Shown one piece after another: positions 1,109 through 27,317 of a stretch of DNA of 31,931 nucleotides. Location of the stretch: positions 1 through 31,931 of IMG/VR virus record IMGVR_UViG_3300036985_001493; one strand, given 5' to 3'. The translations under genes and the position numbers were made by a program. The notes below the pieces were generated by a model. It was given only the letters and a program-made list of their open reading frames with translations, had not been told where the DNA came from and did not search any database. Every line of letters starts with the position of its first letter. Position 1 is the first letter of the stretch. Source of the DNA: a virus.

Positions 1109-1285
1109 TTATTTTTTAAGACCGCGACTATTTACGGGCGGTACTTGGTACAAGGGTGCCTTAGGGGCTTGCTTGGAACCAGAGGGTCCTGTCTCTACGG
1201 GCGAGCCGGGGCCGCCTGCATAACCGGGCTTGCCCGTGATCTTGTAGTTCTTGCGAAAACCCATGTCTTGATTGCCTGTTGCCAT
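1109..1285 (-). CDS. 58-residue Gly/Pro-rich protein coupled to the portal
   Basis: A short open frame starts at ATG 1285, which overlaps the portal stop codon as TAATG, and ends in TAA at 1109. The predicted protein has 58 residues, begins MATGNQDMGFRKNYK and is rich in Gly, Pro, Ser and Lys, so it is probably disordered. An AGGAG site lies 7 bases upstream inside the portal gene. The tight coupling and the good ribosome binding site argue that it is real despite its size. I do not recognise it; a small head or tail-completion factor is possible. Confidence 0.65.
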   Translation of the reverse strand: MATGNQDMGFRKNYKITGKPGYAGGPGSPVETGPSGSKQAPKAPLYQVPPVNSRGLKK

Positions 1286-4041
1286 TACTGTGCTCCTGTT
1301 GGTTGTTGTGCTTGTTGTGCCGCTTGGGCCAACTGTTGTTGCGCTTGCATCGCCGCATCGTGTGCACGTTGCTGTTCTGCTTGCGCTTGATCTAACCCAT
1401 GCTTACGCATATCTGCGTACGCTTGGCTTTCTGCTTCCAACGCAGTCATCTCTTGTGAGTGCTGTTGTTGAACCTGTTGTGCGCTCAACTCTTGGTCGGC
1501 GTTGATCATTGCCACACGCTCTCTTGAGGCGTTGTTTATGTCCGCAATCGCCACTTTGGCCGCGTTGTCTTGGTCTGCTAACTCTTGTTGCAACCCAAGC
1601 TTTGCCTGAATCTCTGCAACCTTGGCCTGCATGTCGCGAACCTTGTCTGCCATCTCGGCCTGCATCTTCTCGCGCTCCAACTGGAATCTGGCCTGCGCCT
1701 CTTCCGTCTTGCGTTTGGTCTCCGCCATTTGTGTTTGGATAAGAGCCTGAGACGTTGGGTCCGCCATGGCAACTTGTTGCATTTGAGTCTGTTTGGCCTG
1801 TTGCATCTGTTGCACCAACTGCTGAATAATTGGGTTGATGCCGCTGAACGTCTTTTCCGCGTCTTGGTTGACCAACTGCGCGGCCATGGCCAACGCCTCT
1901 TGGGCGGCTTGGTCCAGCTTGCGTTCTTCGTTCAACTTGAACGCGTCTTCTCCACCAGCGGCGTGCGACACGTAGTTGCGCATCGATTGCAGGTAGTGCA
2001 GTGTCAGGTGTTGCTTGATGTGCTCCAACATCAAAGGCGTCACACTTGGTCCAATAAGTGGGTTGCCGCCGTACGCGGGGTCCATCATGTACGCCAAGTG
2101 AACCTTCAGGTGGTCGATGTGGCTCTGGTCTGGGAACGCGGCGGCCGCGTGGCCCATTGTCATCTGCACGTTCTCCAGTGCAGGGTTGCTCTCAACCGAG
2201 CCCTGTGGGTTAGGCATGACCTTCTCAATGTCAGGCACCTTCATCAACTTCATCACGCGCATGTGCGCCTCACGCACGTTGTACAACTGCGGGGCCTTGT
2301 CTGCCAACTGCATGACCAGTTGAGCCTGAGTCAGGCGCTGTGTTTCGCTGAAGATGTTGGGGTCAGAGATCGGGCTGACGTCTGAGTTGTCTTCAAAGTC
2401 CTCAACCGCAATCTCGGCGCCGGACTGGTTGTCCATGTCTTCCAAGTACCAGTGGTTGATACGTGATAAGACCTGCAAGCTCTTAGCCTGACTGCGGTGC
2501 AGTCGTGCGTGAATGCTTGAGAACACCTTCGAGCCCTGCTCGATCAGCGCCTGTGTTGTGCCAACTGGTGTGTTATTACCCGCGTCGGCAATACGGCCTT
2601 CGCTGGTCTTTACAACACCTTTAGCGGCGTCTGTTAACCAACCTAATAGGTTGTACAGCACCGAGGACGGTGGGTTGAACGGCAGTGGCATGGCCAACTT
2701 GCGCACGTCGTCCACGCCGGGTGAACCCTCGATCTCTACGATTTGAGTTGGTTCAATGCGGTCTGTCTGTCCACCAATGCGTCCGCCTTTTAGCTTCAAC
2801 ATGGTCTGGCTGTTGTTTACGTGCGCAGAGTCCATCAACGCGCGGAGCGACCCAGTCAGTGCCGCTGAGAGGCCACCGATCAGGTGTGGCATGCCAATCG
2901 CATAAGCGCCGCGCCATGGAATAAACTTGTACTCCACCATCCAGTCAAGCTTGCGCATGCGCTGGTCGCCTGATTGCCAGTTACGGTACAGTGCAACCAC
3001 CTTGCTTGTAATCTCGTCCACCGTCATAACGTAGGGTGCGCGCTTGCCGTCTGTTAACGGGTCGTCTTCCAAACGCAAGAACACCGTGATCTCGTACACA
3101 CGGCGCAAACCGTCTACGTTCTTCGTTGGCTCTGTTAGACCTTCAATTTTGTCGTTGGCCTTTTTTGACTGTGTCTGGTTCTCAGGCAACAGGTCAGAGG
3201 TGTATATCTCAATATCGCGATATTCGCCTATCTCGACACGTTGCTTGAACATGTCTTCGGTAATGTCTTGCTGTTCTGTTACGCGCGCGGCTGAGTAAAA
3301 ATTGGTAGACGCAAACGGCAACAGCACGTTGTCAATTGGAACCCACTCAGGCACCGGCCTGTTCAGGTCCTTGTCCCATCTCCATTTGAGATATTGGGAG
3401 CCACCAAGAGGAAGCTGTGTGAACAACTGCTCCATCTCGTCGCGGTACTCTTCAACCTGTTCGGTCAACTGCCAGTTCAGGAAATTAGCCTTACGCTGTG
3501 CTGTCTCCAAACGCTGTTGGTCAGACTTGCCCTTAATGAACGTGCGCACCAAGCCGTCTGCCGGCAATAACTCTTTGCACGCGTTTGCCGCAAAGTCCAC
3601 ACAGGCCTCTGCCATGATGGGGTGAACCACCTTGGACGCGCCGTCAAACGTTGCGCCACCGGGGGCGTCGTTGCCCATACCTGTGCGGCGAATGCCCTCT
3701 TCGTACTGCTTGTCACGTTGCTTGCGGGACTCGCGGTCCACCTCAATCAGGTCAAGGTACTCGGACGCTAAACTGTCAAGGATGGACTCTTCCATCTCTT
3801 CGGCCAAGTTGGCGTAAAACTCTGGGTTCTGTGACGGCTTTTCTGTCTCCATCATGTTCACCACAACGGACCCGTCCTCCAACTCAATAACCTCAGACTC
3901 TACGTCGTCAATGTCCAAGTCCAGCGCGTTGGCCAGATCTTGGATTTCTTTTTCCGTGTCTACTTCTTTTGTCGTCTCATCTTCAGCAAACGACAACGCG
4001 GACAGGTTACCGCCCTTTTGGAGTGGAATAGTTGGTTGCAT
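1285..4041 (-). CDS. Portal protein
   Basis: A 918-residue protein, large for a portal (P22 gp1 has about 725). It follows the terminase on the same strand. The middle region carries portal-like features: a DGASKVVHPIMAEACVDFAANACKEL helix region near residues 130-160 and an aromatic GGSQYLKWRWD segment. From roughly residue 740 to the end the protein is a long Gln/Ala-rich coiled-coil stretch, as expected of the extended barrel of P22-type portals. In the virion the portal forms the dodecameric DNA gate at one capsid vertex and docks the terminase. Its ATG overlaps the upstream stop as TAATG. The portal role is well supported by content and context; the precise family is not certain. Confidence 0.82.
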   Translation of the reverse strand: MQPTIPLQKGGNLSALSFAEDETTKEVDTEKEIQDLANALDLDIDDVESEVIELEDGSVVVNMMETEKPSQNPEFYANLAEEMEESILDSLASEYLDLIEVDRESRKQRDKQYEEGIRRTGMGNDAPGGATFDGASKVVHPIMAEACVDFAANACKELLPADGLVRTFIKGKSDQQRLETAQRKANFLNWQLTEQVEEYRDEMEQLFTQLPLGGSQYLKWRWDKDLNRPVPEWVPIDNVLLPFASTNFYSAARVTEQQDITEDMFKQRVEIGEYRDIEIYTSDLLPENQTQSKKANDKIEGLTEPTKNVDGLRRVYEITVFLRLEDDPLTDGKRAPYVMTVDEITSKVVALYRNWQSGDQRMRKLDWMVEYKFIPWRGAYAIGMPHLIGGLSAALTGSLRALMDSAHVNNSQTMLKLKGGRIGGQTDRIEPTQIVEIEGSPGVDDVRKLAMPLPFNPPSSVLYNLLGWLTDAAKGVVKTSEGRIADAGNNTPVGTTQALIEQGSKVFSSIHARLHRSQAKSLQVLSRINHWYLEDMDNQSGAEIAVEDFEDNSDVSPISDPNIFSETQRLTQAQLVMQLADKAPQLYNVREAHMRVMKLMKVPDIEKVMPNPQGSVESNPALENVQMTMGHAAAAFPDQSHIDHLKVHLAYMMDPAYGGNPLIGPSVTPLMLEHIKQHLTLHYLQSMRNYVSHAAGGEDAFKLNEERKLDQAAQEALAMAAQLVNQDAEKTFSGINPIIQQLVQQMQQAKQTQMQQVAMADPTSQALIQTQMAETKRKTEEAQARFQLEREKMQAEMADKVRDMQAKVAEIQAKLGLQQELADQDNAAKVAIADINNASRERVAMINADQELSAQQVQQQHSQEMTALEAESQAYADMRKHGLDQAQAEQQRAHDAAMQAQQQLAQAAQQAQQPTGAQ

Positions 4042-5690
4042 TATTGGTTAAAGCCTCTGTATGCTTTACGGATTGGTCCGGCCATGGGCAACATGCCCAA
4101 CGAGCTCATGCCCGCGCTAACTGGCTCGCCTTTTCCGATGTAGTGTCCTGTTTCTGCGGCGTACATAGGCGCCATGGCCATTGCGCCAGCGGGGTTTAAC
4201 ATGGCGATGTCTGCCAAACCAAAACCGCCGGGTAAATTACTGGAGGGTCCACCAACTACTGTGTTGGCCATCTTGCGTGCCTTATAGCGATTCATGCCAT
4301 GTTTCTCTAAAAAGTCTTGACCCAATGAAGAGATACGCTCTTTAGGAGAAGCTTTGTACTCGCTGACCGACGGTTGACGGCGCTCGTAGTTTTGCATCAT
4401 TGCCTCGTCGGCAGAATTATCCATTCTTGAACCGCCACCACGAATGTAGTTTGTCAACTCTTCCATTGTGGGTTGTTGTGTTTGTCCGCCATTACCATAG
4501 CCGCGGACCATCATCTCGGCCTGCATGTCGCGGGGAGAGTACATCATGCCGCCTGCGGCTTTACCCTGAACAGCCGCCGCCGCACGGCGACGCTTGTCTT
4601 CCAACTCTTGCATCTGCCAGTCTTGCGCAAACGGCTGGCGCTGTGCTGGCTCGGTGTCAAGCAAGTAGTCACGTTGGTTCTTTGGGAACCAGTCAGACGG
4701 GTGCTTGGTCACCACCGACTCAGGCAGACCCGACATGCGGGCCTCGTCGCGCCACGCGTTCATCTCTGCGGTTGCTGGACCACGACCCTGCACAGGGCGT
4801 TGAGCAATTGGGTTCATGCCGGTGTAGTTGTGACGCATGGGGTTGATCATCGCGTTAATCGCGTTGACAATGTCTTCTTTGTCCGGGTCAATGCCGCGGG
4901 CCTTGAAGTCAGCAACCACTTTATCCACCAACGCGCCGTGCTTACCCAACAACATCTCGTCTGTCAGTTTGTCAATGCCGGGACCCTCTAGTTGCGCGGC
5001 ACGTTCGGCGAACGGCGCGCTGGCGCTGGTCATCTGTGGGATGTCACCCTCAGTCACGCGCAGGGCATCAAGTCCACCCATTGCGTCGTCACCAACGCCT
5101 GTCAGTGCCTCTTCACCCAACTGCTGGCGCGTTGCCAACTCTTCTGTTGAGGGCGTGAATGACTTGTTCCATGTGCGGTTGCCTGTGCGGCCCGTGTTGG
5201 CCATCGACATGAACTCGTCTTCAGGGAACGCGTTCTGAAACTGGCCCTTAGGGTACGCACGCGCCTTGATGTTTGCTGGCGCCATGCCAAACTGGCTTGG
5301 TAAATCTTGGTAAGGACCCACTGACTCGCGTGTTGCCACGCCTTTTGCGCGCTCTGGCGTAATAATTTGGCCTGTGGGGCTTGTTGCTGTTGGATAAGGA
5401 CGGCCTGTTGCGTCAACAAGCTGGTTTGCAAACGGTGTTTGTTGTTGCATGCGCGCCATTGTCTGCGGCGCGTTGCCTGTTGGCTGAGAAAGCGAGCGGA
5501 TGTGGTCTTCCAACTGCTTTACTTCTTCTGGTGACGGGGGTTTGCCTACAGCTTTTGTGTATTTGCGAATTGCGTCTTGAATTCGGCTTGCAAACTGCTC
5601 AATAACGCCAGTTTTCCCACCCGTACCGTAATGTGGCAGGTTGGCCTGTTCGTACATCATCTGTGTGGGGGTTTTAATTGGGTTTAGCAT
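4041..5690 (-). CDS. 549-residue unknown protein between terminase and portal
   Basis: This gene lies between TerL and the portal, and its stop overlaps the portal start. The N-terminal 70 residues look helical. The centre is Pro/Gln/Met rich. From about residue 380 there are several Gly-Gly motifs with Met (KAAGGMMYSPRDMQ, GYGNGGQTQQ, RGGGSRM). The last 70 residues are rich in Ala, Gly and Met (NPAGAMAMAPMYAAETGHY) and weakly hydrophobic. Glycine-doublet linkers like these occur in many phage virion proteins, so a minor structural or ejected internal protein is plausible. I do not recognise a named family. About 70 bases with no other gene separate it from the terminase stop. Confidence 0.7.
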   Translation of the reverse strand: MLNPIKTPTQMMYEQANLPHYGTGGKTGVIEQFASRIQDAIRKYTKAVGKPPSPEEVKQLEDHIRSLSQPTGNAPQTMARMQQQTPFANQLVDATGRPYPTATSPTGQIITPERAKGVATRESVGPYQDLPSQFGMAPANIKARAYPKGQFQNAFPEDEFMSMANTGRTGNRTWNKSFTPSTEELATRQQLGEEALTGVGDDAMGGLDALRVTEGDIPQMTSASAPFAERAAQLEGPGIDKLTDEMLLGKHGALVDKVVADFKARGIDPDKEDIVNAINAMINPMRHNYTGMNPIAQRPVQGRGPATAEMNAWRDEARMSGLPESVVTKHPSDWFPKNQRDYLLDTEPAQRQPFAQDWQMQELEDKRRRAAAAVQGKAAGGMMYSPRDMQAEMMVRGYGNGGQTQQPTMEELTNYIRGGGSRMDNSADEAMMQNYERRQPSVSEYKASPKERISSLGQDFLEKHGMNRYKARKMANTVVGGPSSNLPGGFGLADIAMLNPAGAMAMAPMYAAETGHYIGKGEPVSAGMSSLGMLPMAGPIRKAYRGFNQ

Positions 5691-5760
5691 TGTGATTTTT
5701 GGTTTTATGGAGACCTTCTATAACCAATCACCCATAAATACACCCAATTACGCCCGAAAA

Positions 5761-7200
5761 TCACGCGGCGTAGGGGTTATTGACCCTGTTTCGCGCTATG
5801 TCGTCTGCGTGTGCGTAGTCTCTTGACGGCAGAGGGTCCAACAAGAGCCAACCTGAGTCGCGCAGGACCCTGAGTGCCTGTGAAAGTGCGTCAACATAGT
5901 CGTCGTGGCCTTTTGCTTCCGGAAAAGAGCACACTTGGCGGATAAAACGCTTGGCCCACGGGGCTACCTCGCCCGGAATTGCTGGGTCTTCTGGCACGTA
6001 CACCCTTCCTTTTGCGATTAGAGGCGCCACAATGTTCATCCTCTGCACCTTGTCGGCTCTTCCGGGGTTGTATGACCTCACCGGTAGGTGCGCGGCCTGC
6101 AGTTCTTGAATCAATGAGATACCCGCGGACTTATCTTCCATGAGGATGAGGTCCGTTTTCTTGCCCTTGGCGAACGTGTTGTCCGCGCCGTACACAACCT
6201 CCTTGTAGTCCTCGATCACTTTGCGGCGCAACTCAGGGTACGACAGGTGGTTGTCCCACGCGTCAAGTAAAATGCAACTTGTTGCAAAATCATCTTGCTC
6301 GAATACACCCAGCGCAATGCACGCGGTCGGGTCGTTGTGTGTTTTCTCGGAGGTCGCTGGGTCGTATGACACCAGCACGTACTCCAGCACGGGTGTTGGT
6401 TTGTGCGCGGGCCAGTTTCTAAACCATTTACGCTTGACAATACCCGCGTTCTCTGGGTCCAAGATCTCGCCGTAAATTTCCTGACGACCTAAGTCCGTGC
6501 CCTCGTACGCTTCTAGTTGTTTAAAAAAAGTTGAGGAGAGGTTGGCCCTGTTGTCGTATGAGGATGCTTTGGACACGTACACGTCGCCGCCAACCTTGCC
6601 CTCGTTCAGGTCCGTGATTAGTTCCAGCGGTTTGGGTGTGGTGGTGATGATCGACTGCACACGCTCGATGCGCGGGTCAGTCAGACGCAAAGTAAACTGA
6701 ATCTGGTCGTACGCGTCGTCGATGTACTCGAACGCACACAACTCGTCTGCCCACATGCCGTGCCACTGTGTACCCCGGAAGCGCTCTGGCTCAGACGCCG
6801 GGATGCCGCGGATCATGCTTCCATTCTTTAAGGTAAGCTCAAACAGCGACTTGTTGTAGTCCTTGATCAGCGACGAGGGTATGATGTTAAGAAGCCCTGA
6901 GTCTCCCTCAAAGCACGTTGCGCGAATGTCGTTTGATGTTGGCGCCGTGACCAACCAGCGGGTCTTGTCGTAGATCGCCGCCCTTAGTCCAAGCCAGTTG
7001 GACGCGGTGTGGGTCTTGCCGGAACCCCGGCCGGCTAAAAGTAAAAAGGTATCGTACTCCCCGTCGTCAGGCTCTCGTTGGTGCGGTAGTGCGGTAAGCT
7101 CCCACCTCACACGCCACAACGCTAGGTCCAGTTGCTCCTTGGGCCATCCCTTGTTCTGGTCTGCAAACGCCTTGAGTAGCTTTTGCTGTGTGTCGTTCAT
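5761..7200 (-). CDS. Terminase large subunit (TerL)
   Basis: A 479-residue packaging ATPase/nuclease. Counted from ATG 7200, the Walker A motif GRGSGKTH is at about 57-64, the Walker B MWADE at about 149-153 and the coupling motif ITTTPKP near 185-191. The RNase H-like nuclease has its acidic residues in SYDPATSEK (about 279), LMEDKS (about 355) and GHDDYVDALSQ (about 434). It pumps DNA through the portal and cuts the concatemer. ATG 7200 forms an ATGA overlap with the stop of the Hint gene; an in-frame ATG at 7206 is the alternative. The ATPase core is not interrupted by an intein, which matters because a Hint-like protein is encoded directly upstream. Confidence 0.93.
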   Translation of the reverse strand: MNDTQQKLLKAFADQNKGWPKEQLDLALWRVRWELTALPHQREPDDGEYDTFLLLAGRGSGKTHTASNWLGLRAAIYDKTRWLVTAPTSNDIRATCFEGDSGLLNIIPSSLIKDYNKSLFELTLKNGSMIRGIPASEPERFRGTQWHGMWADELCAFEYIDDAYDQIQFTLRLTDPRIERVQSIITTTPKPLELITDLNEGKVGGDVYVSKASSYDNRANLSSTFFKQLEAYEGTDLGRQEIYGEILDPENAGIVKRKWFRNWPAHKPTPVLEYVLVSYDPATSEKTHNDPTACIALGVFEQDDFATSCILLDAWDNHLSYPELRRKVIEDYKEVVYGADNTFAKGKKTDLILMEDKSAGISLIQELQAAHLPVRSYNPGRADKVQRMNIVAPLIAKGRVYVPEDPAIPGEVAPWAKRFIRQVCSFPEAKGHDDYVDALSQALRVLRDSGWLLLDPLPSRDYAHADDIARNRVNNPYAA

Positions 7201-8069
7201 AGGCATACTGTCAGGTACCCCTCGCTGATTAGGAACGTGTTGTTCGGGTCTGCGGTCTTGATGTGCATGCAGGGCCTAATGTCCACTTTGGTAACGTGGG
7301 TAATCCTGCGCATCTCCTCGTAATGCGGCCGGCGCACAGGGATCTGGTCCTCGACCAGTTTTAGGTTGGTCCTGAACACCATGTGGTAATTTTTTTTGAG
7401 TTCTGCGATTTCTGTACGTATGCCTAAGGATTCTGTTAGGTTGTGGATTGACCTGAACAGCCGCAGGTCCTTAATGTTGAACCTGAACTTTGCCGAAACC
7501 TTGCTGTGGCACTTTGGCCGTGAGGCGCATACCCCCCGGAGTATAGCCAGTCGTTGCTCAAAGGATGAGAACAGGTACTCTTCTGGAATGTGGTCTGGTA
7601 TCTTGCCGTAACTCTCAATCAGCTTGGACGTGATGAGCGTGCGCTTGTCCCTGTGTGGGTCCCCGATCCACACGCCTAGGTCGTAGGGGTGGAGGGGTAG
7701 CGGCTTGGCTTCTGGCTTAATCGGGTAGCACGTTGGCATCCTGCACCAGCCCGTGTCTATGGTGGCTAGGTTCTGTGGCGCGTAGATGGGAAGGCTGTAC
7801 TCTTCTTTGGGGAATTGTTTGCGTCCCCACTTGGACAGTGTAAGGAACGTCTTGCTGTCGTACACCGGAATGCCGGTGCGGCTATCCACCACCAACGTCA
7901 GGCCGTCCTTGGTCCAGATCTTATGACACACCACCGGCGTGTACTCCTGAACAGAAACAACCATGACGGGCAGGCCCGTGTAATCAAAAACCTCATCCCC
8001 CGGTTTGATAAACCTTGCTAACTGCCATCCGGCAGTGGTGGGAATGGGGGTACGTGCGTCGATTCCCAT
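7197..8069 (-). CDS. Stand-alone degenerate Hint (intein-like) protein with homing-endonuclease remnant
   Basis: A 290-residue protein built like an intein but coded as a separate gene. Residues 6-27 match intein block A (RTPIPTTAGWQLARFIKPGD). Residues 52-70 resemble block B, but the usual His is Thr. LGVWIGD (131-137) and RLAILRGVCASR (173-184) resemble the two LAGLIDADG-type endonuclease blocks; the second has lost its acidic residue. Residues 262-290 resemble blocks F and G (VDIRPCMHIKTAD, then FLISEGYLTVCL). Cys1, the block B His and the terminal His-Asn are all absent, so splicing is not expected. An in-frame stop lies five codons upstream of ATG 8069. It overlaps TerL by ATGA, taking the slot where a small terminase often sits. 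Confidence 0.7.
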   Translation of the reverse strand: MGIDARTPIPTTAGWQLARFIKPGDEVFDYTGLPVMVVSVQEYTPVVCHKIWTKDGLTLVVDSRTGIPVYDSKTFLTLSKWGRKQFPKEEYSLPIYAPQNLATIDTGWCRMPTCYPIKPEAKPLPLHPYDLGVWIGDPHRDKRTLITSKLIESYGKIPDHIPEEYLFSSFEQRLAILRGVCASRPKCHSKVSAKFRFNIKDLRLFRSIHNLTESLGIRTEIAELKKNYHMVFRTNLKLVEDQIPVRRPHYEEMRRITHVTKVDIRPCMHIKTADPNNTFLISEGYLTVCL

Positions 8070-8150
8070 GTCTAACCCTAATTACCCATGGATGCGGTTG
8101 TTTACGCCCCAGTTTAGGGTGGGGGGTATATGACCCAGAAATCGGTGTTT

Positions 8151-8261
<111 letters not shown>

Positions 8262-8496
8262 AGATGAGTACTAAGGTATACAGTTTTAAAATTATGCGGT
8301 TGAGGGTGTTACAAATACCCACACTGACAGCAGGGTCTATATACCCCCGGGGGTATATGTACACATAAATGTTAACAAATCAGGGTTTTTGTAAAAATAT
8401 ACAGGAATTGCAAAAACTTGCTGGCTGTGGGGGCCCCCCGCCCGGGTTGTCCGATGGGACCCTAAATGGGGTGTCGCTAAAAAACAACGCCCCCTC

Positions 8497-8655
8497 ATAC
8501 CCTACGGGGTATAGTAGCATACCCTACGGGGTATAGCATCATACCCTACTGGGTATAGTACCCGCTCGGCCGCATACCCTACTGGGTATAGTAGGCACCG
8601 AGGCGCATACCCTACTGGGTATAGTATGCACCGAGGCGCATACCCTACTGGGTAC
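8497..8655. repeat. Six palindromic iterons ATACCC-N4-GGGTAT
   Basis: Six 16-bp copies of ATACCC-TACG/TACT-GGGTAT start at 8497, 8519, 8541, 8574, 8607 and 8640. The first three are 22 bases apart (two helical turns). The last three are 33 bases apart (three turns) and are separated by GCACCGAGGCG-like spacers. The last copy has GGGTAC. The phased spacing suggests binding by a dimeric protein on one face of the DNA, as in an iteron origin or an operator array. A related perfect palindrome lies at 8341. Confidence 0.85.
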
Positions 8656-8674
8656 AGTATGCCCGCGGCCAACA

Positions 8675-8829
8675 TGGCACGGACCTTGCTAGCCTAGCAA
8701 GTATCATGCCAACGTGGACATGGCACGCATGTTGCTACTAGCAAGAAGCATGCCAAGGCACACTGGCACGTATGTTGCTATTAGCAAGAAGCATGCCAAC
8801 GTGGCCGCGGCACGTATCTTGCTAGTGTG
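8675..8829. repeat. Array of 35-bp palindromes with TTGCTA / TAGCAA cores
   Basis: Three full copies (about 8675-8711, 8721-8755, 8764-8798) and a half copy (from 8809). Each starts TGGCACG, has an inner TTGCTA...TAGCAA inverted repeat, and ends CATGCCA, which pairs with the start. Copies can fold into hairpins and are separated by 8-10 bases. A weak open frame through this array is best explained by the repeats. Confidence 0.8.
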
Positions 8830-8986
8830 GCACGCAGGCATACTGGTCAGTCACTATTTAGACTGCGCAGTCATTCATCATACCATAGCACCAATGCGCA
8901 CGCGAGGCCGACGTGCCTGTGTAGCGTCATTGCACTAATATAGAACACCACACAATTGCCCTAGTTGGTCGTCTAGTGCTGATCCT

Positions 8987-9018
8987 AATTCACCCCGAGT
9001 TGACCATAGTAGTATCAG
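8987..9018 (+). promoter_or_regulatory. Start-linked conserved box, copy 1
   Basis: First copy of a box beginning AATTCACCCCGAG and ending TTGACCATAGTAGTATCAG. It lies 44 bases before the ATG at 9063, farther than the other copies, and has no hairpin in front. Confidence 0.8.
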
Positions 9019-9062
9019 CAGGCAAATGCTTGTTGACCAACCCAACCAAACAGGAGCACACC

Positions 9063-9380
9063 ATGCAAACCCTCACACCATCACGCCACACAGGCGACCG
9101 CGACAACATGTTCACAATCAACCTGCCGCGCATGCGCGGCATATACAGCGACGCAAGCTTGTACCAAGGCTATAAGAAAAACGACGACGGCATTTACTGG
9201 GCCCTGCAACATTCGTCCTGTTTACAGGGCCATTACAGCGAGGCAGACATTGCCCATCGCGACCGCCTGCACAACATGAAACCATTGGAAAACGGCGACA
9301 TTGTGCTGATCAATGGCGAGCAGTACAAGACGCGCATTCTTGGCAATTTCAGCGACTGCGCCATTTTCGACAAGGTTTAA
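9063..9380 (+). CDS. Unknown 105-residue early protein
   Basis: The start ATG 9063 follows CAGGAGCACACC, the same ribosome-binding context used by many genes in this block; an upstream in-frame start at 8976 would read through the conserved box and is rejected. The protein is hydrophilic with aromatic patches (YSDASLYQGYKKNDDGIYWALQ) and a beta-rich C-terminal half (GDIVLINGEQYKTRILGNF). I do not recognise it. It is the first gene of the small-gene block and so is likely early expressed. Confidence 0.65.
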   Translation: MQTLTPSRHTGDRDNMFTINLPRMRGIYSDASLYQGYKKNDDGIYWALQHSSCLQGHYSEADIAHRDRLHNMKPLENGDIVLINGEQYKTRILGNFSDCAIFDKV

Positions 9381-9384
9381 TCGA

Positions 9385-9418
9385 TGCGTGATGGCCTGTG
9401 GATCAGGCCATTGCAGAT
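9385..9418 (+). other. Intergenic hairpin, copy 1
   Basis: ATGGCCTG (9391-9398) pairs with CAGGCCAT (9404-9411) around the loop TGGAT. TGCG and GCAGATC flanks can extend the stem. It directly follows a stop codon and precedes a conserved box. There is no T run, so it is a weak terminator at best, or an RNA processing site. Confidence 0.8.
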
Positions 9419-9419
9419 C

Positions 9420-9451
9420 AATTCACCCCGAGTTGACCATAGTAGTATCAG
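9420..9451 (+). promoter_or_regulatory. Start-linked conserved box, copy 2
   Basis: Identical to copy 1 through the terminal TATCAG. It begins one base after the hairpin and ends 22 bases before the ATG at 9474. Confidence 0.85.
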
Positions 9452-9473
9452 TAACCAAACCAAGGAGCCCATC

Positions 9474-9740
9474 ATGACACTCACTACACTTTTCAAAGTA
9501 ACTTACAAACCCGCAACAAACACACGCGCGGCCAAAATGTTGGTCCAACGTATGGACCTTAACGACAAGGCCGAGGCCATGCCGCTGGACTACAGCGCAA
9601 AAAGCATGGCCCGCGCGGCCATCGTGGCATACGCTAAAAAACGCGGCCCACAATGGTGGTTGCCCACCGACGAGGACGACCTACAGTTTGTAGGGGACGA
9701 GAAAAACAGCAACGTCCAGTACTACATCACAAGCAAATAA
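9474..9740 (+). CDS. Unknown 88-residue early protein
   Basis: Starts at ATG 9474 behind CAAGGAG and the conserved box; a longer frame from 9384 reads the hairpin and box as protein and is rejected. The product begins MTLTTLFKVTYKP, with basic and Ala-rich helical middle (KSMARAAIVAYAKKRG) and a beta-strand end (NVQYYITSK). It may be a small nucleic-acid or host-protein binding factor. No family recognised. Confidence 0.65.
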   Translation: MTLTTLFKVTYKPATNTRAAKMLVQRMDLNDKAEAMPLDYSAKSMARAAIVAYAKKRGPQWWLPTDEDDLQFVGDEKNSNVQYYITSK

Positions 9741-9772
9741 TGCGTGATGGCCTGCATGCAGGCCATTGCAGA
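9741..9772 (+). other. Intergenic hairpin, copy 2 (palindromic variant without box)
   Basis: ATGGCCTGCA (9747-9756) is followed directly by its reverse complement (9757-9766). The flanks TGCGTG and TTGCAGAT match the other copies. Unlike them, this one is not followed by the conserved box. Confidence 0.8.
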
Positions 9773-9798
9773 TTATTTTCAACCAAGGAGAAACCACC

Positions 9799-10542
9799 AT
9801 GAAAAAACCCACCGGATACGTTATTTATCGCGGCCCATCGTTGCTAGACGGCACACCCATTGTGGCCGTGGCCCTGCTCGGTTCCAGTAACCGCAAGACA
9901 GGCAATATGGTGCAGACCTATATCCTGCGCGACGACATGCGGCCGACACTGGCCGTCCAAACTGGTGCCGACAGCGCGATCTGTGGCAATTGCAAACACC
10001 GGCCATTTTTAGGTGGCGCGTGCTATGTGGTCGTGGCCCAAGGTCCTACAGTGGTTTTCAAAACCATGCAGGCCGGCAAATACCCGACAGCAACACCGGC
10101 CGATGTGGGCACCATGGTGGCCGGTCGCATGGTGCGTCTCGGCACGTATGGGGACCCTGCCGCGGTTCCTGCCAACGTGTGGCAGGCCCTGACAGCGCAG
10201 GCCGCGGGCCGCACAGGTTATACGCACCAGTGGGCCAACGAGGCCCTGCCAATGGACCACAGGGCAGACATTGCCCAGTTGACAATGGCCAGTGTAGACA
10301 CAGTGGAAGAGGCACAACAGGCACGCGCAAGCGGCCTGCGTTATTTCCGCATTCGTTTGGCCACCGAGGCCCTGCAAGAGCGTGAGTTTGTCTGCCCTGC
10401 CAGTGAAGAGGCCGGTAAGCGCAAACTGTGTGACACGTGTGGCGCGTGCAACGGCACGACCAAATCCACCGGCGCAAGCCCTGTGATCATTGTCCATGGC
10501 AACAAGGCACGACGTTTCACAGAACAGCGCGCGACAGCATAA
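9799..10542 (+). CDS. Cysteine-rich conserved phage/plasmid protein (DUF7227-like)
   Basis: A 247-residue protein beginning MKKPTGYVIYRGPSLLDG. It carries two cysteine clusters: CGNCKHR with a later CYV (Cys62, Cys65, His67, Cys75) and a C-terminal CPASEEAGKRKLCDTCGAC (Cys199, 211, 214, 217). I recognise this layout from uncharacterised proteins found in many phages and plasmids, which I believe are grouped as DUF7227; the family name is from memory. The cysteines suggest one or two zinc or iron-sulfur sites. The start follows CAAGGAGAAACCACC. It is the largest gene of the block and the only one behind a hairpin without the conserved box. Function unknown. Confidence 0.75.
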   Translation: MKKPTGYVIYRGPSLLDGTPIVAVALLGSSNRKTGNMVQTYILRDDMRPTLAVQTGADSAICGNCKHRPFLGGACYVVVAQGPTVVFKTMQAGKYPTATPADVGTMVAGRMVRLGTYGDPAAVPANVWQALTAQAAGRTGYTHQWANEALPMDHRADIAQLTMASVDTVEEAQQARASGLRYFRIRLATEALQEREFVCPASEEAGKRKLCDTCGACNGTTKSTGASPVIIVHGNKARRFTEQRATA

Positions 10543-10546
10543 TTGA

Positions 10547-10580
10547 TGCGTGATGGCCTGTGGATCAGGCCATCGCAGAT
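10547..10580 (+). other. Intergenic hairpin, copy 3
   Basis: ATGGCCTG (10553-10560), loop TGGAT, CAGGCCAT (10566-10573); one flanking base differs from copy 1 (CGCAGATC for TGCAGATC). Confidence 0.8.
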
Positions 10581-10581
10581 C

Positions 10582-10613
10582 AATTCACCCCGAGTTGACC
10601 ATAGTAGTATCAG
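10582..10613 (+). promoter_or_regulatory. Start-linked conserved box, copy 3
   Basis: Full copy ending TATCAG, 19 bases before ATG 10633, with AAGGAG between. Confidence 0.85.
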
Positions 10614-10632
10614 TAACCAAAAGGAGCAAACC

Positions 10633-10818
10633 ATGGACAAGATCCAAGCATTCTTAGACGCCAAAGTAAAAGGCCAAAACATTTATTACCCTGCCAAGGT
10701 CATTGGTTTTAACCGAGAGACAAAGACATGGCAGTCCTATAGTGTGGAAGACTCACACAAACGAGAACTGCGCAAGTTGATGGAGCAGGCCGGTTTCATT
10801 CACGTTGAATTTCAATAA
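10633..10818 (+). CDS. Unknown 61-residue early protein
   Basis: Starts at ATG 10633 in the context AAAAGGAGCAAACC after hairpin and box. The protein is short, basic and mixed alpha/beta (YYPAKVIGFNRETKTWQSY, then a helical RELRKLMEQAG end). Its stop at 10816-10818 lies just before the ribosome binding site of the next gene, so the two are probably co-translated. No family recognised. Confidence 0.65.
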   Translation: MDKIQAFLDAKVKGQNIYYPAKVIGFNRETKTWQSYSVEDSHKRELRKLMEQAGFIHVEFQ

Positions 10819-10828
10819 GGAGCAGACC

Positions 10829-11209
10829 ATGGTTAAATTCAAAAAGACAGTGCCGGACGGCCGGCACGTGACAGAGGCGCGTGATTGCACAGTGCGCGCG
10901 TTGGCCCACGTGGCCGACATGCCATACAGCGAGGCCCACGCGCTCATGGCCTCATTCGGCCGCAAGAACAGACGTGGCGTGCCACGTGGTGACGTGGTCA
11001 GGGCCTATGCAAGCAAGGGCCTGACATACATCAAGCGCAACGACAGGCCCACACTGGCGCAGTTTATGCGCGAGGATGGCGCCAAGCACGAGCGCCTAGT
11101 GATCAACAAAACCGGCCACGTGTTTGCCCTGATCAACGGCACACAGTTGGACATGGCCAAGTGCGGACCACGCACACGAGTGCAAGGGTATTACGTGCCG
11201 GCAAAATGA
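10829..11209 (+). CDS. Papain-like/C39-like cysteine peptidase fold protein
   Basis: A 126-residue protein with a pattern seen in small phage proteins related to papain or C39 peptidases. Cys20 sits in ARDCTVRALA at the start of a helix (the usual catalytic Cys position), a helix with PYSEAHALM follows, then PTLAQFMRE, and His97 in GHVFALINGTQLD with Asp108 as possible third residue. The length is close to a minimal domain. It could cut a host or phage protein or be an inactive binding version. Start ATG 10829 follows AATAAGGAGCAGACC; a start at 10805 is inside the previous gene. Medium confidence on fold, none on substrate. Confidence 0.6.
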   Translation: MVKFKKTVPDGRHVTEARDCTVRALAHVADMPYSEAHALMASFGRKNRRGVPRGDVVRAYASKGLTYIKRNDRPTLAQFMREDGAKHERLVINKTGHVFALINGTQLDMAKCGPRTRVQGYYVPAK

Positions 11210-11243
11210 TGCGTGATGGCCTGTGGATCAGGCCATTGCAGAT
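11210..11243 (+). other. Intergenic hairpin, copy 4
   Basis: ATGGCCTG (11216-11223), loop TGGAT, CAGGCCAT (11229-11236), with the same flanks as copy 1; its TG overlaps the stop region of the previous gene. Confidence 0.8.
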
Positions 11244-11244
11244 C

Positions 11245-11272
11245 AATTCACCCCGAGTTGACCATAGTAGTA
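11245..11272 (+). promoter_or_regulatory. Start-linked conserved box, copy 4
   Basis: Same box ending TAGTAGTA, then CAACAGGAGCAAACC and ATG 11288. The trailing TCAG of copies 1-3 is absent. Confidence 0.85.
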
Positions 11273-11287
11273 CAACAGGAGCAAACC

Positions 11288-11554
11288 ATGAAAAACGCAG
11301 ACGCGATCAGGGCATACGTGCTCGATCAGTACATCGAAACAGGCCGACGCATTTTTGTGTCCGACCTGATGGAGCAATTCAACACCAACGCAGTGGGCAT
11401 TCGCAATGCGTTGGGATACGACGATTTTGTCTTCGAGCACGACGACAAATGGAGTGGCAGTAATTACGCAGGCAAGTACATACAGGCCGCATGCGTCGAG
11501 CCCAACAAGGCCGGCCTGATCAAATTCATCAAACAATTAAGGAGCACAACATGA
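11288..11554 (+). CDS. Unknown 88-residue protein, possible HTH-type
   Basis: Starts at ATG 11288 after the box. The N-terminal half (DAIRAYVLDQYIETGRRIFV, then SDLMEQFNTNAVGIRNALGY) reads like a winged-helix or helix-turn-helix layout, so DNA binding is possible. The rest is a charged tail ending LIKFIKQLRSTT. The stop overlaps the next start as ATGA. The helix-turn-helix idea rests only on sequence feel. Confidence 0.6.
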   Translation: MKNADAIRAYVLDQYIETGRRIFVSDLMEQFNTNAVGIRNALGYDDFVFEHDDKWSGSNYAGKYIQAACVEPNKAGLIKFIKQLRSTT

Positions 11555-11739
11555 AGACAATCACAATCACACAAAAGCAGTGGTCAGAATTAAACGTCGG
11601 CCTACTGTATGAAATGGCCAAGTTCTTGGCAGAAGAGCACAGCGAGGGCCTGACACGCGAAGAGCGCACAGACACCATCAACATGCTGAACGACGCGCTG
11701 TACCAGTACAACAAGATCAAAGAGGCATTCAAAGCATGA
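11551..11739 (+). CDS. Unknown 62-residue helical protein
   Basis: Starts at ATG 11551, overlapping the previous stop, behind TTAAGGAGCACAAC. Mostly helical and acidic (LLYEMAKFLAEEHSEG, then RTDTINMLNDALYQYNKIKEAF). No family recognised. Its stop overlaps the next start as ATGA. Confidence 0.6.
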   Translation: MKTITITQKQWSELNVGLLYEMAKFLAEEHSEGLTREERTDTINMLNDALYQYNKIKEAFKA

Positions 11740-11831
11740 AATACCTTAGAGAGTTTATCGAGGCCCTGATACTGGCCGCGCTCATAGGCGGCCCGTTGTT
11801 TTATTATTTTCTTTATGTAATGAAACCATGA
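11736..11831 (+). CDS. 31-residue single-pass membrane peptide
   Basis: A short frame from ATG 11736 to TGA 11831, linked by ATGA overlaps on both sides. The peptide has a charged start (MKYLREFIE) followed by one hydrophobic segment (ALILAALIGGPLFYYFLYV). The overlaps on both sides and the clear membrane span support a real gene. A role in the host inner membrane is inferred. Confidence 0.5.
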   Translation: MKYLREFIEALILAALIGGPLFYYFLYVMKP

Positions 11832-11926
11832 CAAACTGGCCATTCCCCCCATTCCCAAACCCCAAAGACAAGGGCACCAACGTGCCCAAGTTCAACCCTG
11901 ACAATTACGAGGACGCACCAAGATGA
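11828..11926 (+). CDS. 32-residue proline-rich peptide
   Basis: From ATG 11828 to TGA 11926, overlapping the gene before and the gene after by four bases. Starts MTNWPFPPFPNPKDKG and is rich in Pro, Asn and Asp, so probably unstructured. The chained ATGA overlaps are the main evidence. Confidence 0.45.
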   Translation: MTNWPFPPFPNPKDKGTNVPKFNPDNYEDAPR

Positions 11927-12201
11927 AAACAGCACGACCATACACCGACGACGTCGGAGGTTTTATCTACTACAAAAAGATGGCCGAGCAGGCCGCGAAG
12001 GCCGCACACAGTGCCGCGCATGGCGTCTGTGTCACTGTGGACTACTTCAATGGTGACTACAAGTTCATCATTTGGACACTGGCCCCCAAGGCCACCAACG
12101 GCATTACCAAGCATGAATTATTCGCAGAGGTTACAGACCAAGATCGCTTAAACGCACACGTTATCGGTTTCACACAAAACATTGAGGAGTTGACAAAATG
12201 A
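11923..12201 (+). CDS. Unknown 92-residue early protein
   Basis: Starts at ATG 11923 by ATGA overlap. It has an Ala-rich helix (MAEQAAKAAHSAAHG) and a beta-strand region (VCVTVDYFNGDYKFIIW), followed by an acidic helix. It overlaps the next gene by four bases. No family recognised. Confidence 0.6.
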   Translation: MKTARPYTDDVGGFIYYKKMAEQAAKAAHSAAHGVCVTVDYFNGDYKFIIWTLAPKATNGITKHELFAEVTDQDRLNAHVIGFTQNIEELTK

Positions 12202-12392
12202 GAAAATTTCCACTGTACATCATTGACAGGGCCGGCCAGTTCACCACGCAGGAATTCCCGTCGTACGAGGAGCAGTGCGCGGCCGCGGACAAGTGGGAGG
12301 CCGGTGGCCATGAGACCTACTTCAATTACCTTAACGCGGTCCTGCGTTACGACGCATTCAAACGATTCAACCAATCACAAGGGGCAAAATAA
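12198..12392 (+). CDS. Unknown 64-residue early protein
   Basis: Starts by ATGA overlap at 12198. Sequence begins MRKFPLYIIDRAGQFTTQEF and ends in a basic helix rich in Tyr and Phe (YFNYLNAVLRYDAFKRFNQ). Its stop overlaps the next ATG as TAATG. Confidence 0.6.
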   Translation: MRKFPLYIIDRAGQFTTQEFPSYEEQCAAADKWEAGGHETYFNYLNAVLRYDAFKRFNQSQGAK

Positions 12393-12592
12393 TGATCAAG
12401 TTAACAGCAGACACACTGGACAATTTCACAAATTCGGCAGTGATCAACATTGGCAAAAACAACGGGTACATCGAGGCCTACATTGACAACGCAATGGAAA
12501 GCCCACAGTTGTGCATCTACATATACGACAGCAAGGGCAATGTATTTTCGCGTGAAATTATGCCAGTTGAACTTTTAAAAAGGATCAAATAA
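12392..12592 (+). CDS. Unknown 66-residue early protein
   Basis: Begins at ATG 12392 overlapping the previous stop. It looks like a small beta-rich domain (INIGKNNGYIEAYIDNA, LCIYIYDSKGNVFSREI) with a basic C-terminal helix. The next gene starts in its stop codon. Confidence 0.6.
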   Translation: MIKLTADTLDNFTNSAVINIGKNNGYIEAYIDNAMESPQLCIYIYDSKGNVFSREIMPVELLKRIK

Positions 12593-12927
12593 TGAACGAT
12601 TTCCAAAACGCATACGAGACGGCCAAAATGCAAAAGTGGCACAGGGTCACAAAGACCATGGAAGAGGCGCAGGCACAACACGAGGCCGGCAAACACGTGG
12701 TCATGGTGGAGGCCCTAGCATACTGCCCCTACACCGACGCGGCCATGGGCACCATGCCACACATCATGGAGGCATTCGACACACAGGAAGAGGCGCAGGC
12801 ATACATCAATAAGAATTTTGAAGAGTTCGGGGCCTGTGAGGCCGTCGACATGTTCATATACCCAAGGCCGGTGATCGAGCGCAAGGCGCGCTACATTCCC
12901 GAAGACTTTGACGACATTCCCTTTTAA
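12592..12927 (+). CDS. Unknown 111-residue early protein
   Basis: Starts at ATG 12592, overlapping the previous stop as TAATG. Contains an acidic helix (MEEAQAQHEAGKHVVMVEA), a CPYTDAAMG segment and a Pro/Asp-rich end (YIPEDFDDIPF). The stop TAA at 12925-12927 already forms the first bases of the next conserved box. No family recognised. Confidence 0.62.
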   Translation: MNDFQNAYETAKMQKWHRVTKTMEEAQAQHEAGKHVVMVEALAYCPYTDAAMGTMPHIMEAFDTQEEAQAYINKNFEEFGACEAVDMFIYPRPVIERKARYIPEDFDDIPF

Positions 12928-12956
12928 TTCACCCCCAGTTGACCATAGTAGTATCA
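12926..12956 (+). promoter_or_regulatory. Start-linked conserved box, copy 5
   Basis: Variant with CACCCCCAG for CACCCCGAG, then TTGACCATAGTAGTATCA. No hairpin in front; the box begins inside the stop codon of the previous gene. Confidence 0.85.
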
Positions 12957-12974
12957 ACAACACAGGAGCACACC

Positions 12975-13409
12975 ATGAGCACACAAATTAAAACGATGGC
13001 CGAATTCGAGGCCGAGAAACCCCAAGACTTCCGCAACCCAACAGAGGAGAAAACCATGAACAGGACATACTGGACCGGCCAAGGCCGCTACCAACTGAAG
13101 GCCGACGCGTTAGAGAAGCTTCTGCCGGTCATTGGCGAGGTGGAAGGCGGCCAAGGTGCCAACAAGCACCTAGAGGCATTCAGGCGCGCAGTTAACTGCT
13201 ACTACGACCTGTACAACAACGGCCTGTGCAACAGGGCCCGTGAGTTCAGCACGCTGTTTAAAATTGCAGGCGTGCCCAAAGAGATTAAAGCGCGTCGGTG
13301 GATGGACAGCATGCTCAGTGGCGACACGCAGGAGCGCATCGAGGACAAAATGGGCCTGTTCATACTGGCCGCGTTTCAAGAACAATTTGCAGAGGAGACA
13401 ACAGAATGA
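12975..13409 (+). CDS. Unknown 144-residue early protein with a second internal start
   Basis: ATG 12975 follows CAGGAGCACACC after the box. An in-frame ATG at 13056 has its own strong site (AGAGGAGAAAACC), so a 117-residue short form may also be made. The main domain is helical: ADALEKLLPVIGEVEGG, a middle with NCYYDLYNNGLCNRAREF, and a C-terminal MGLFILAAFQEQF. The first 27 residues look like an added leader. No family recognised. Confidence 0.62.
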   Translation: MSTQIKTMAEFEAEKPQDFRNPTEEKTMNRTYWTGQGRYQLKADALEKLLPVIGEVEGGQGANKHLEAFRRAVNCYYDLYNNGLCNRAREFSTLFKIAGVPKEIKARRWMDSMLSGDTQERIEDKMGLFILAAFQEQFAEETTE

Positions 13410-13933
13410 TTACAGTAGACAAATTCAACGTGCGCATTTTGCGCAAGGGTGACAAGTACGGCCGCGAGTTCTGCCTGACACACGACGAGGACAAACCAGT
13501 GGTCGAGTTCTACGACAGCCGGTACCCACACTGCGAGTTTGGCCAGTTTGTGACACGCTACTATGTGTCCACCATCCTAGGCACCGACAAGTGGGGCCGT
13601 GGTGCAGGCGGCCTGATCTTGGACGGTGGCATCCCTGCGTGGACAGTGAGCGCAGAGGACATGGACACAGTGCGCGAGTACCTGCGGGCCGAGACCGACC
13701 AAGCCCCCAAGGTCATGGTTTGGTTTGGCATGATGGAACACGGCCAGTTTGGTGTGACAAAGCACGACATTGAACGCATGGTGATCATTCACTCGATCGA
13801 CGAGAAGGTCCTAATGGACCCCAACGAGATCGAGAATCACTTGGCCCTGCACCATTACGACAGTTACATCGTGCCCTCTGAGTTTGTGGGATACGTTACG
13901 TATTCATTAGACTACATTAGGAACCTGCCCTAA
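13406..13933 (+). CDS. Unknown 175-residue early protein
   Basis: Starts at ATG 13406 by ATGA overlap; a frame from 13298 begins inside the previous gene. The N-terminal half has a beta-rich region (FNVRILRKGDKYG, CLTHDEDKPVVEFYDSRYP) and a YYVSTILG motif. The C-terminal half is mixed (GQFGVTKHDIERMVIIHSID). No family recognised. The TAA stop begins the next conserved box. Confidence 0.62.
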   Translation: MITVDKFNVRILRKGDKYGREFCLTHDEDKPVVEFYDSRYPHCEFGQFVTRYYVSTILGTDKWGRGAGGLILDGGIPAWTVSAEDMDTVREYLRAETDQAPKVMVWFGMMEHGQFGVTKHDIERMVIIHSIDEKVLMDPNEIENHLALHHYDSYIVPSEFVGYVTYSLDYIRNLP

Positions 13934-13959
13934 TTCACCCCGAGTTGACCATAGTAGTA
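13932..13959 (+). promoter_or_regulatory. Start-linked conserved box, copy 6
   Basis: Box ending TAGTAGTA, then CAAAGGAGCAAACC and ATG 13974. As in copy 5 it overlaps the previous stop and has no hairpin. Confidence 0.85.
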
Positions 13960-13973
13960 CAAAGGAGCAAACC

Positions 13974-14228
13974 ATGAAAAAGTTACAGAAATTTATCAAA
14001 GCAGAAAACGACTGGCGTAAGATTTTCGGCAACCCTGCCCTGACAATCGAAACACCGGAGGGCAGGCAACAGGTGGCAGACTTGATCGACATTCAACTAA
14101 GCCCCGAGAACCTGTACTGTGACGGCGAGATCAGCCACACAGAGGCGCAGATGAAGTACCGCATGTTATCAGGCGCGGCCAAAGACCTGATGAAGATCGA
14201 CCCCAACGTGGTCATTTATGAAATTTAA
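13974..14228 (+). CDS. Unknown 84-residue helical protein
   Basis: ATG 13974 sits behind AAAGGAGCAAACC. The protein is mainly helical and charged (MKKLQKFIKAENDWRKIF, then EGRQQVADLIDIQ). No family recognised. Its stop precedes the next ribosome binding site by one base. Confidence 0.6.
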   Translation: MKKLQKFIKAENDWRKIFGNPALTIETPEGRQQVADLIDIQLSPENLYCDGEISHTEAQMKYRMLSGAAKDLMKIDPNVVIYEI

Positions 14229-15830: not shown

Positions 15831-16076
15831 ATTTTAAGCAACGCGTAAGTTTCATGTAAGTTTCATGCGCGTCAAACAAAATTGAGTACTTAGGTACTAA
15901 TCTTGTTCAGGGTGTTCAGGGTGTCAGGGTCATATCTCTATTTTTGATTTTTTTTTTTTTTTTTTTTTTTTTAATAAAATAAATAAATAACCCCGACAAC
16001 CTGAACACCCTGAACAAAACTAAACTAAAGTACTCATTTTTAAAAGTGTTGCTTTTTTACTACTGTGGATAACTTT
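15831..16076. other. Intergenic control region between the two rightward operons
   Basis: No gene seen. The region holds two tandem copies of GTAAGTTTCAT (15845-15866) framed by ACGCG/CGCGT, then the right copy of the A-tract hairpin element (below), then an AT-rich leader to ATG 16077. It probably ends one transcription unit and starts the next. Confidence 0.6.
15904..16016. repeat. A-tract hairpin element, right copy (inverted)
   Basis: The arm TGTTCAGGGTGTTCAGGGTG (from 15904, continuing TC) pairs with 15995-16016 with one mismatch in 22. The loop holds 25 consecutive T residues (15948-15972). The block 15894-15941 is the reverse complement of 8224-8271 with about two mismatches in 48. 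The element lies about 60 bases upstream of ATG 16077. Confidence 0.85.
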
Positions 16077-17386: not shown

Positions 17387-17788
17387 ATGAATTTAGATGA
17401 CATTAAACAGATGTTGCAAATAGTCAACGTGGACCCACGCACAGTGGAGTTGGTCGAGTTTGCGTACCACCAAGGGGTCAAGCACCCCGACCCCCAACAG
17501 CCTAAGTGCAACCCACACTCAAAGGCACCACACGGGTTTGCGAGAGAGGCAAGCCACCAAGCGGCCCGTTACGTGTGCGAGTGTGAGTCATGGGACGCGT
17601 ACGATGCCGGCAGAGAGGACGGGGTGCAGGCCATGTTGGACTACAACAACCCTGCCCCCTACGTCCAACTGACAGCCGCGGAGATCGTGGACTGTGCCAA
17701 GGTGGTGTACCAGTGCGACCCCAACGACGTGAGCGAGAACGACATTAAGTTTGCGCGCCACATTGAGCGACTGACACTGGAGAGATAA
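17387..17788 (+). CDS. Phage protein with HGFAREASHQAARYVCECE motif
   Basis: A 133-residue protein starting one base after the previous stop. It holds a segment with CNPHSKAPHGFAREASH and RYVCECESW, giving three Cys and several His that could bind a metal. Similar HGF-ASH-RYVC motifs occur in other phage hypotheticals. The last part is an acidic helical region (ENDIKFARHIERLTLER). Its stop overlaps the sigma factor start as TAATG. Confidence 0.65.
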   Translation: MNLDDIKQMLQIVNVDPRTVELVEFAYHQGVKHPDPQQPKCNPHSKAPHGFAREASHQAARYVCECESWDAYDAGREDGVQAMLDYNNPAPYVQLTAAEIVDCAKVVYQCDPNDVSENDIKFARHIERLTLER

Positions 17789-18312
17789 TGCGACGACAAC
17801 TACTGACAGCAGAACAAGAGATCGAGCTACACCACCGGATTGTGCAGGGTGACGAGGAGGCCCACGACCAGTTGGTGGAGGCCAACATGGGACTGGTGGT
17901 GTACATCGTGCAGAAGTTGCCGCAGTGGGACCTGAACAGCAGTATGACACGCGACGACCTACTGCAAGAGGGCTACATTGCCCTGATGAAGGCCGCGCAC
18001 AGGTGGAAACCGCAGGGAAGGTTTGCAAGCTACGCGCGCACACTGATCAAGAGCCAAGTGCTACGTGCGGTGGAGAACAAGGCCCTACTCATTCACGTGC
18101 CGGTGTCGGTGCAGGAGGACCTGCGCAAGATCAAGCGGGTAGAGACCGAGTTGGCCCAAGTGCTGAACAGGGACGCCACACCCAAAGAGGTGGCCAAGTT
18201 AACGGGCCTGACAGAGAGCAGGGTACGTGATAGACTGGTGGTGAGTCAGAGACAACCGGTGTCACTGGACGCGTACAAGAAAGACCAAATAACGGAAGAA
18301 GACTATGATTGA
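17788..18312 (+). CDS. Sigma-70-like factor with regions 1.2 to 3, lacking region 4
   Basis: A 174-residue protein. Region 1.2 is at about 5-30 (LTAEQEIELHHRIVQGDEEA), region 2.1 follows (NMGLVVYIV), region 2.2 DDLLQEGYIALMKAAHRW is at 56-73, and 2.3-2.4 is RFASYARTLIKSQVLRAVEN. Region 3 is at about 105-150, and RQPVSLDAY matches the start of the 3.2 linker. The protein then ends in an acidic tail, so the -35 binding region 4 is missing. Such a factor could direct host RNA polymerase to phage promoters using -10 contacts, or pair with a separate region 4 protein. A region-4-like gene lies at 26630. Confidence 0.8.
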   Translation: MRRQLLTAEQEIELHHRIVQGDEEAHDQLVEANMGLVVYIVQKLPQWDLNSSMTRDDLLQEGYIALMKAAHRWKPQGRFASYARTLIKSQVLRAVENKALLIHVPVSVQEDLRKIKRVETELAQVLNRDATPKEVAKLTGLTESRVRDRLVVSQRQPVSLDAYKKDQITEEDYD

Positions 18313-27114: not shown

Positions 27115-27305
27115 TGGCAAATGAAGCAACAAATTTATTAACGTCTTTGGGCGTGAAACCAAAAGAGCAACGCATTCAGGAAATGGCCGGAGCGGTGACA
27201 AGATTGGTGGTAAACGAGGCATTACGCGAGGCAAAGGCCCGTGCGCAGGTGCGAGACTCAAATACTCAGGCGCAGAAGGTCGAAAAACCCTCTCAAAATG
27301 GGTAA
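27114..27305 (+). CDS. Unknown 63-residue helical protein
   Basis: Starts at ATG 27114 in the previous stop. Helical and Ala/Glu/Arg rich (RIQEMAGAVTRLVVNEALR, EAKARAQVRD). A small oligomerising protein is possible; no family recognised. A hairpin follows its stop. Confidence 0.58.
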   Translation: MANEATNLLTSLGVKPKEQRIQEMAGAVTRLVVNEALREAKARAQVRDSNTQAQKVEKPSQNG

Positions 27306-27317
27306 TTCTATATAGGA

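Follow-up and report, generated by a model that had tools for sequence, protein, structure and literature searches.

To our knowledge, no function has been proven for phage start-associated repeats since they were first described, in mycobacteriophages of cluster K. There, a short asymmetric repeat (SAS, GGGATAGGAGCCC) stands immediately 5' of the start codon of many unrelated non-structural genes, mostly in one orientation, about half of the copies have a linked inverted repeat (ESAS), with sequence varying by subcluster, and the authors found little support for mRNA hairpins in the ESAS. Temperate phages of the L5 type carry stoperators, which are repressor-bound sites reading GGTGGMTGTCAAG. 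Sigma factors without region 4 and repeated promoters without a -35 element occur in phiEco32, whose gp36 uses a single -10-like element (PMC8948821), and in T4, with gp55 and gp33 (PMC2988020); these promoters are middle or late and 8-9 bp long. Hammerhead ribozymes flanking phage genes are also known, and their placement between genes before ribosome sites suggests cutting of long transcripts (PMC3088659).

The window, i.e., the whole stretch of DNA analysed here, is an entire linear IMG/VR virus record of 31,931 bases from a freshwater phage and is probably a fragment. Its repeated box resembles the cluster K repeats in layout. The box, however, ends 14-48 nt before the start codon, and the hairpin in front of some boxes, unlike the ESAS, has compensated base pairs. 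In the window, GGGATAGGAGCCC had three matches at 2-3 mismatches, which is fewer than chance, with none at the boxes, in agreement with the initial annotation that the box differs from the cluster K sequence. The box is also longer than the phiEco32 and T4 promoters (28-29 bp) and stands before early genes, and the late-type motif of the window differs from those promoters in sequence. Host sigma-70 promoters share with the box the span of about 29 bp and the -10-like end, and both hexamers match in one lineage (G006), whereas the window lineage is without a -35 match and has the whole spacer conserved.

Box array and hairpins in the window

The leftward part (1285-8069) comprises the genes for a portal and for a terminase that is split. 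From about 9 kb the genes point rightward; numerous small proteins come first, followed by sigma factor, primase-helicase, endonuclease, SNF2-type helicase, DUF2800 exonuclease, and Enc34-type single-strand binding protein. The terminase large subunit is seemingly split into two overlapping genes, 5761-7206 and 7197-8069 (5761-8069, minus strand). Relatives in culture, judged by terminase (Caulobacter phage RLK, about 43% identity), carry neither the sigma factor nor the box or late motif. One related contig sits in a betaproteobacterial metagenome-assembled genome, which is too weak as a pointer to the host. On either side of the early region that holds the boxes lies one of two related long inverted repeats (8151-8252 and 15898-16022), with arms TGTTCAGGGTGT / ACCCTGAACA and A/T-run centers. 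The divergent intergenic region at 8493-8660 holds six palindromic repeats, CATACCCTACTGGGTATAGTA, at spacings of 22, 22, 33, 33, and 33 bp, a possible operator or origin array, and several inverted-repeat copies (TGGCACG-ATGTTGCTA-TAGCAAGAAGCATGCCA) lie at 8672-8830.

The six near-identical boxes named in the initial annotation were all recovered, each on the plus strand just 5' of a gene or short gene block (Table 1); the short gap before the ATG that it described also stood, with its limits of 15-44 nt proving slightly too narrow. The boxes have the form AATTCACCCCSAG-TTGACCATAGTAGTA, and exact AATTCACCCCGAGTTGACCATAGTAGTA is found in five of the six. The 15-mer TTGACCATAGTAGTA occurs six times exactly in the window and at seven sites with ≤3 mismatches, against 0.37 expected from shuffles. 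The boxes fold no better than shuffled sequences (z of -0.2 and -0.9).

Folding of the hairpins, which have 18 pairs and a 2x2 internal loop, is much stronger than that of shuffled sequences (z of -3.0 to -5.5). Three stand in front of boxes and one stands without a box, the latter reported at 9741, and all four were confirmed. In an alignment of 15 sequences, five pairs are changed on both sides and 96.7% of the cells pair, compared with ≤42% in slid controls, so the hairpin is selected as RNA. Among 74 sources searched, it is confined to the window's clade but for one marginal match (L214, E 0.056). Because it begins near the stop codon of the preceding gene and a T-rich tail is present only at 9744-9769, a role in transcript processing is more likely than termination. 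Unlike the hammerheads of prophage genes, the hairpin is without the three-stem core (CUGANGA...GAAA), and the hammerhead assignment was rejected; neither box nor hairpin of the window gave an Rfam match.

Table 1. Coordinates of window features and repeat variants in related phages
Feature	Source	Positions	Strand	Core end to start codon (nt)	Context or sequence
Box 1	Window	8987..9014	+	48	5' of gene 9063-9380
Box 2	Window	9420..9447	+	26	5' of gene 9474-9740; hairpin in front
Box 3	Window	10582..10609	+	23	5' of gene 10633-10818; hairpin in front
Box 4	Window	11245..11272	+	15	5' of gene 11288-11554; hairpin in front
Box 5	Window	12926..12953	+	21	5' of gene 12975-13409; single change (CCCCCAG); overlaps the preceding gene's stop codon
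Box 6	Window	13932..13959	+	14	5' of gene 13974-14228; overlaps stop codon of upstream gene
Hairpin	Window	9379..9425	+		RNA element before box 2
Hairpin without box	Window	9735..9778	+		5' of gene 9799-10542; both strands of the outer stem altered (AAATAAT/ATTATTT)
Hairpin	Window	10541..10587	+		RNA element before box 3
Hairpin	Window	11204..11250	+		RNA element before box 4
Phage sigma factor	Window	17788..18312	+		Pfam regions 1.2, 2, and 3; no region 4
Second promoter-like motif	Window	5726..5735	-		Before leftward gene 4041-5690
Second promoter-like motif	Window	8080..8089	-		Before leftward terminase gene 7197-8069
Second promoter-like motif	Window	27298..27307	+		ATGGGTAATT, then TATAGG-like tail; 5' of gene 27355-27744
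Box variant	Window's clade				AATTCACCCCCA(A/G)TTGACC... or AACCACCCCCA...
Box variant	G002				ACCCCCACCCGAATTGACCAGA...
Box variant	L057				ACCCCCCTGCCAATTGACC...
Box variant	G006, L015, L072				TTTACATGTACGGATTGACC...
Box variant	G013				TAAGCCCTACAGTTTGACCATAGTTATA
Other repeat	G007			22-25 nt before ATG	GAAGTGTATACGAAAAACCCATATAATACC; four near-identical copies
Other repeat	L120				ACCCTCAAAAAACCAGTAAGATACC; five near-identical copies
Strict hammerheads	L120	467-3243			Type I, four
Strict hammerheads	L155	5010-6290			Type II, four
Strict hammerhead	L157	5003			Type II, one

Boxes in related phages and the promoter reading

Viral contigs were scanned with the 15-base core, resulting in 77 stretches, many of which are single matches within genes of unrelated viruses; about 20 contigs bear copies 5' of start codons, mostly several per contig and in a single orientation. 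The search in related phages proposed by the initial annotation thus found the box in relatives carrying the same genes, so the refutation that it had set did not occur. The metagenome relatives gave 114 distinct sites, in one orientation and 5' of ribosome sites and start codons, with mostly 14-30 nt (full range, 9 to 52 nt) from core end to start; gene starts were called by a simple script, and since most of the relatives are incomplete sequences of uncultured phages and many are close to one another, counts are not independent. Across these sites, the A next to GACC is near-invariant, as are three positions of the 3' part (T, T, and A). TTGACCA is the best-conserved part of the box, with GACC required by the search.

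Phages with a related primase and without this core have different repeats at the same place (G007 and L120). When six lineages with different box sequences were aligned on the -10-like hexamer (TAGTAT; TATTAT in two G002 boxes; TATAAT in the four G007 copies), the conserved block began 22-25 nt upstream and ended at the hexamer or shortly after. This span of about -24 to the hexamer is that of a -35/-10 promoter, hence the reading as a promoter-sized element.

Box sequences also agree within genomes. For the 5' 13 bases in the window's clade, mean mismatches were 0.44 within a genome versus 1.23 between genomes, and 0 of 2,000 permutations were as low, while the 15-base core had no within-genome effect in the same comparison. 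In G017, all seven boxes read AACCACCCCC, and most relatives have AATTCACCCCC. The 5' likeness is what a set of sites tracking a single reader would show; it could alternatively come from shared descent of the cassettes or gene conversion, so the coherence would fit a trans-acting reader as well as either of these.

The initial annotation had listed a promoter, a translation signal, an operator, and a recombination joint as possible functions. The promoter is the best supported, given the promoter-sized span in six lineages, the -10-like 3' end, and the terminators in front of boxes in one lineage: in G006, two boxes come directly after the strong stems of intrinsic terminators, whose ends are at L171:1522 and L171:2000, and a consensus scan gave TTTACA-18-TATTAT and TTTACA-18-TAGTAT at these boxes. 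We therefore regard it as fairly probable that the boxes form one set of matched promoters for early phage genes, and from these sequence comparisons we infer promoter activity, its timing, the start site, and reading by the host RNA polymerase with an additional factor. Each 28-29 bp box would occupy the -35 to -10 place and end in a -10-like hexamer, mostly TAGTAT, and would start a short transcript, beginning just 5' of the ribosome site, for one small gene or a few-gene block. The array would switch many small early genes together, a gene block would be gained or lost along with its own promoter, and the hairpin before three boxes would end the preceding transcript, either through RNA processing or by weak termination.

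Several observations bear on how such a promoter would be built. The consensus scan for sigma-70 promoters (TTGACA-like and TATAAT-like hexamers, 16-18 nt apart) gave none at the six window boxes, where no -35 hexamer is recognizable, and a sigma-70 promoter by consensus was rejected for the window. By simple count, TATAAT-like hexamers before early genes were not generally enriched across all lineages. In an ordinary promoter, TTGACCA would lie within the spacer, which is a point against the promoter reading. The ribosome site begins 3-4 nt after the core in two window boxes (4 and 6) and in roughly one-fifth of the sites from relatives, so that a transcript starting 7 nt after TAGTAT/TAGTAC would lose it; the -10 element may instead be CATAGT, five bases upstream, which leaves the -10 assignment uncertain. 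A translation signal is unlikely, since the distance to the start codon runs from 9 to 52 nt with a ribosome site in between.

Sigma factor, late motif, and competing explanations

The sigma factor of the window aligns to residues 109-265 of a 368-residue SigA, and because the alignment ends at residue 265, region 4 is absent. It matches phrog_351 and cyanophage sigma factors, the homologues found in relatives all stop at the same point, and no region 4 was above the cut-off in 21 records. As a side observation, a sigma factor without region 4 is common to nearly all relatives and resembles those of T4-like cyanophages. A second motif lies 5' of primase, terminase, and structural-region genes, i.e., middle and late genes, reading ATGGGTAATTNNNTATAGG in the window's clade and G002 and TTTGCATTAGTAGTTATAGG or close variants in G006, G007, G008, G011, and G035. 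This late motif ends in TATAGG like T7 promoters, yet a T7-type polymerase promoter was rejected, as no single-subunit RNA polymerase (PF00940) was found in 22 records, including those of 53-68 kb, and two complete relatives, with T7 detected as the positive control.

One alternative is that the box is the promoter for the phage's own sigma factor, which would need no -35 element for lack of region 4. The sigma factor is present in every box-bearing genome of sufficient length for a judgment, every homologue found is without region 4, phiEco32 gp36 offers a precedent, the box and late motif of G006 have TTnnCnnTAGTAGT in common, and the two complete relatives without the sigma factor have neither motif before their genes. 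We nevertheless consider this alternative rather unlikely: each genome has two motif classes, and the class other than the box, ATGGGTAATTNNNTATAGG or TTTGCATTAGTAGTTATAGG before late genes in sigma-bearing lineages, is the better fit for a late-type sigma factor. Moreover, the boxes stand with the small early genes, upstream of the sigma gene, in the window's clade they do not resemble the late motif, and the sigma factor is also present in lineages without this box. Since the second motif class fits a late-type sigma factor and the sigma-less relatives are without both motifs, the sigma factor would read the late motif, and the boxes would be early promoters for the host polymerase, perhaps helped.

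It is also improbable that the box is a regulator site acting on elongating polymerase or silencing genes, such as a stoperator of the kind in L5-like mycobacteriophages or a nut-type antitermination site. Sites of this kind would account for the asymmetry, the single orientation, the short intergenic gaps, and the best conservation lying in TTGACCA (GACC required by the search) rather than in the -10 hexamer. No integrase was found in the nine records examined, however, so there is no sign of lysogeny; the box is without a fold, which speaks against an RNA-level site; and the G006 terminators before two boxes mean that transcription must start between terminator and gene. No early protein common to all box lineages and missing elsewhere was found, and the stoperator pattern had no match overlapping a box.

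A recombination joint for cassette exchange is the least credible of these explanations and very improbable. Gene order was compared among relatives as the initial annotation had suggested, and the units between boxes are indeed reshuffled: they differ among relatives (M105 versus I99), and A247 has moved into its own box unit in L029 and L042. Of the similarity breaks, 34.5% fall within 30 bp of a box, compared with 10.6% of random positions, about three times as often. Gene starts without a box are nearly as rich in breaks, however (4.45 of 12 partners versus 5.40 of 12 with a box), and with no clear excess over other gene starts the joint was rejected; a tyrosine-type site-specific recombinase was also absent from the nine records. 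The box travels with gene blocks and need not promote their exchange.

Promoters remain the favored reading of the boxes, and the relatives put it in testable form, with lineage-specific promoter-sized blocks, terminators preceding boxes, and, in the same genomes, a sigma factor devoid of region 4 alongside a distinct late motif. If true, it would show where early and late transcription units lie in an uncultured freshwater phage group and supply a natural series of promoter variants.

RNA elements in sister phages

In sister phages, hammerhead ribozymes occupy this place, and all nine strict three-stem hammerheads precede ribosome sites of small early genes, 15-22 nt from the start codon. A swap-in design of small early genes in a family of uncultured phages can tentatively be proposed, and is possible though doubtful, in which each block would carry either a lineage-specific 29 bp promoter or an RNA element that cuts the transcript just ahead of the ribosome site. 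Within one genome, the promoters would change together, their reader would be an unrecognized factor contacting the conserved spacer TTGACCA, and the RNA element would be the hairpin in the window or a hammerhead ribozyme in sister phages. The more likely reading of the boxes as matched early promoters, some preceded by a conserved RNA hairpin, would make them a neat piece of regulation and not an element of a new kind.

Near-match hammerheads were seen in L151 and L161. Another repeated hairpin (GAGAGT / GAGCAGGG-loop-CCCTGCTC / ACTTTC) stands before ribosome sites in L139 (34-1190) and L151 (725-1465), and a start-associated palindrome, GGAGTGTTTAAACA-ATG, is repeated at gene starts in L136, L146, L148, and L158.
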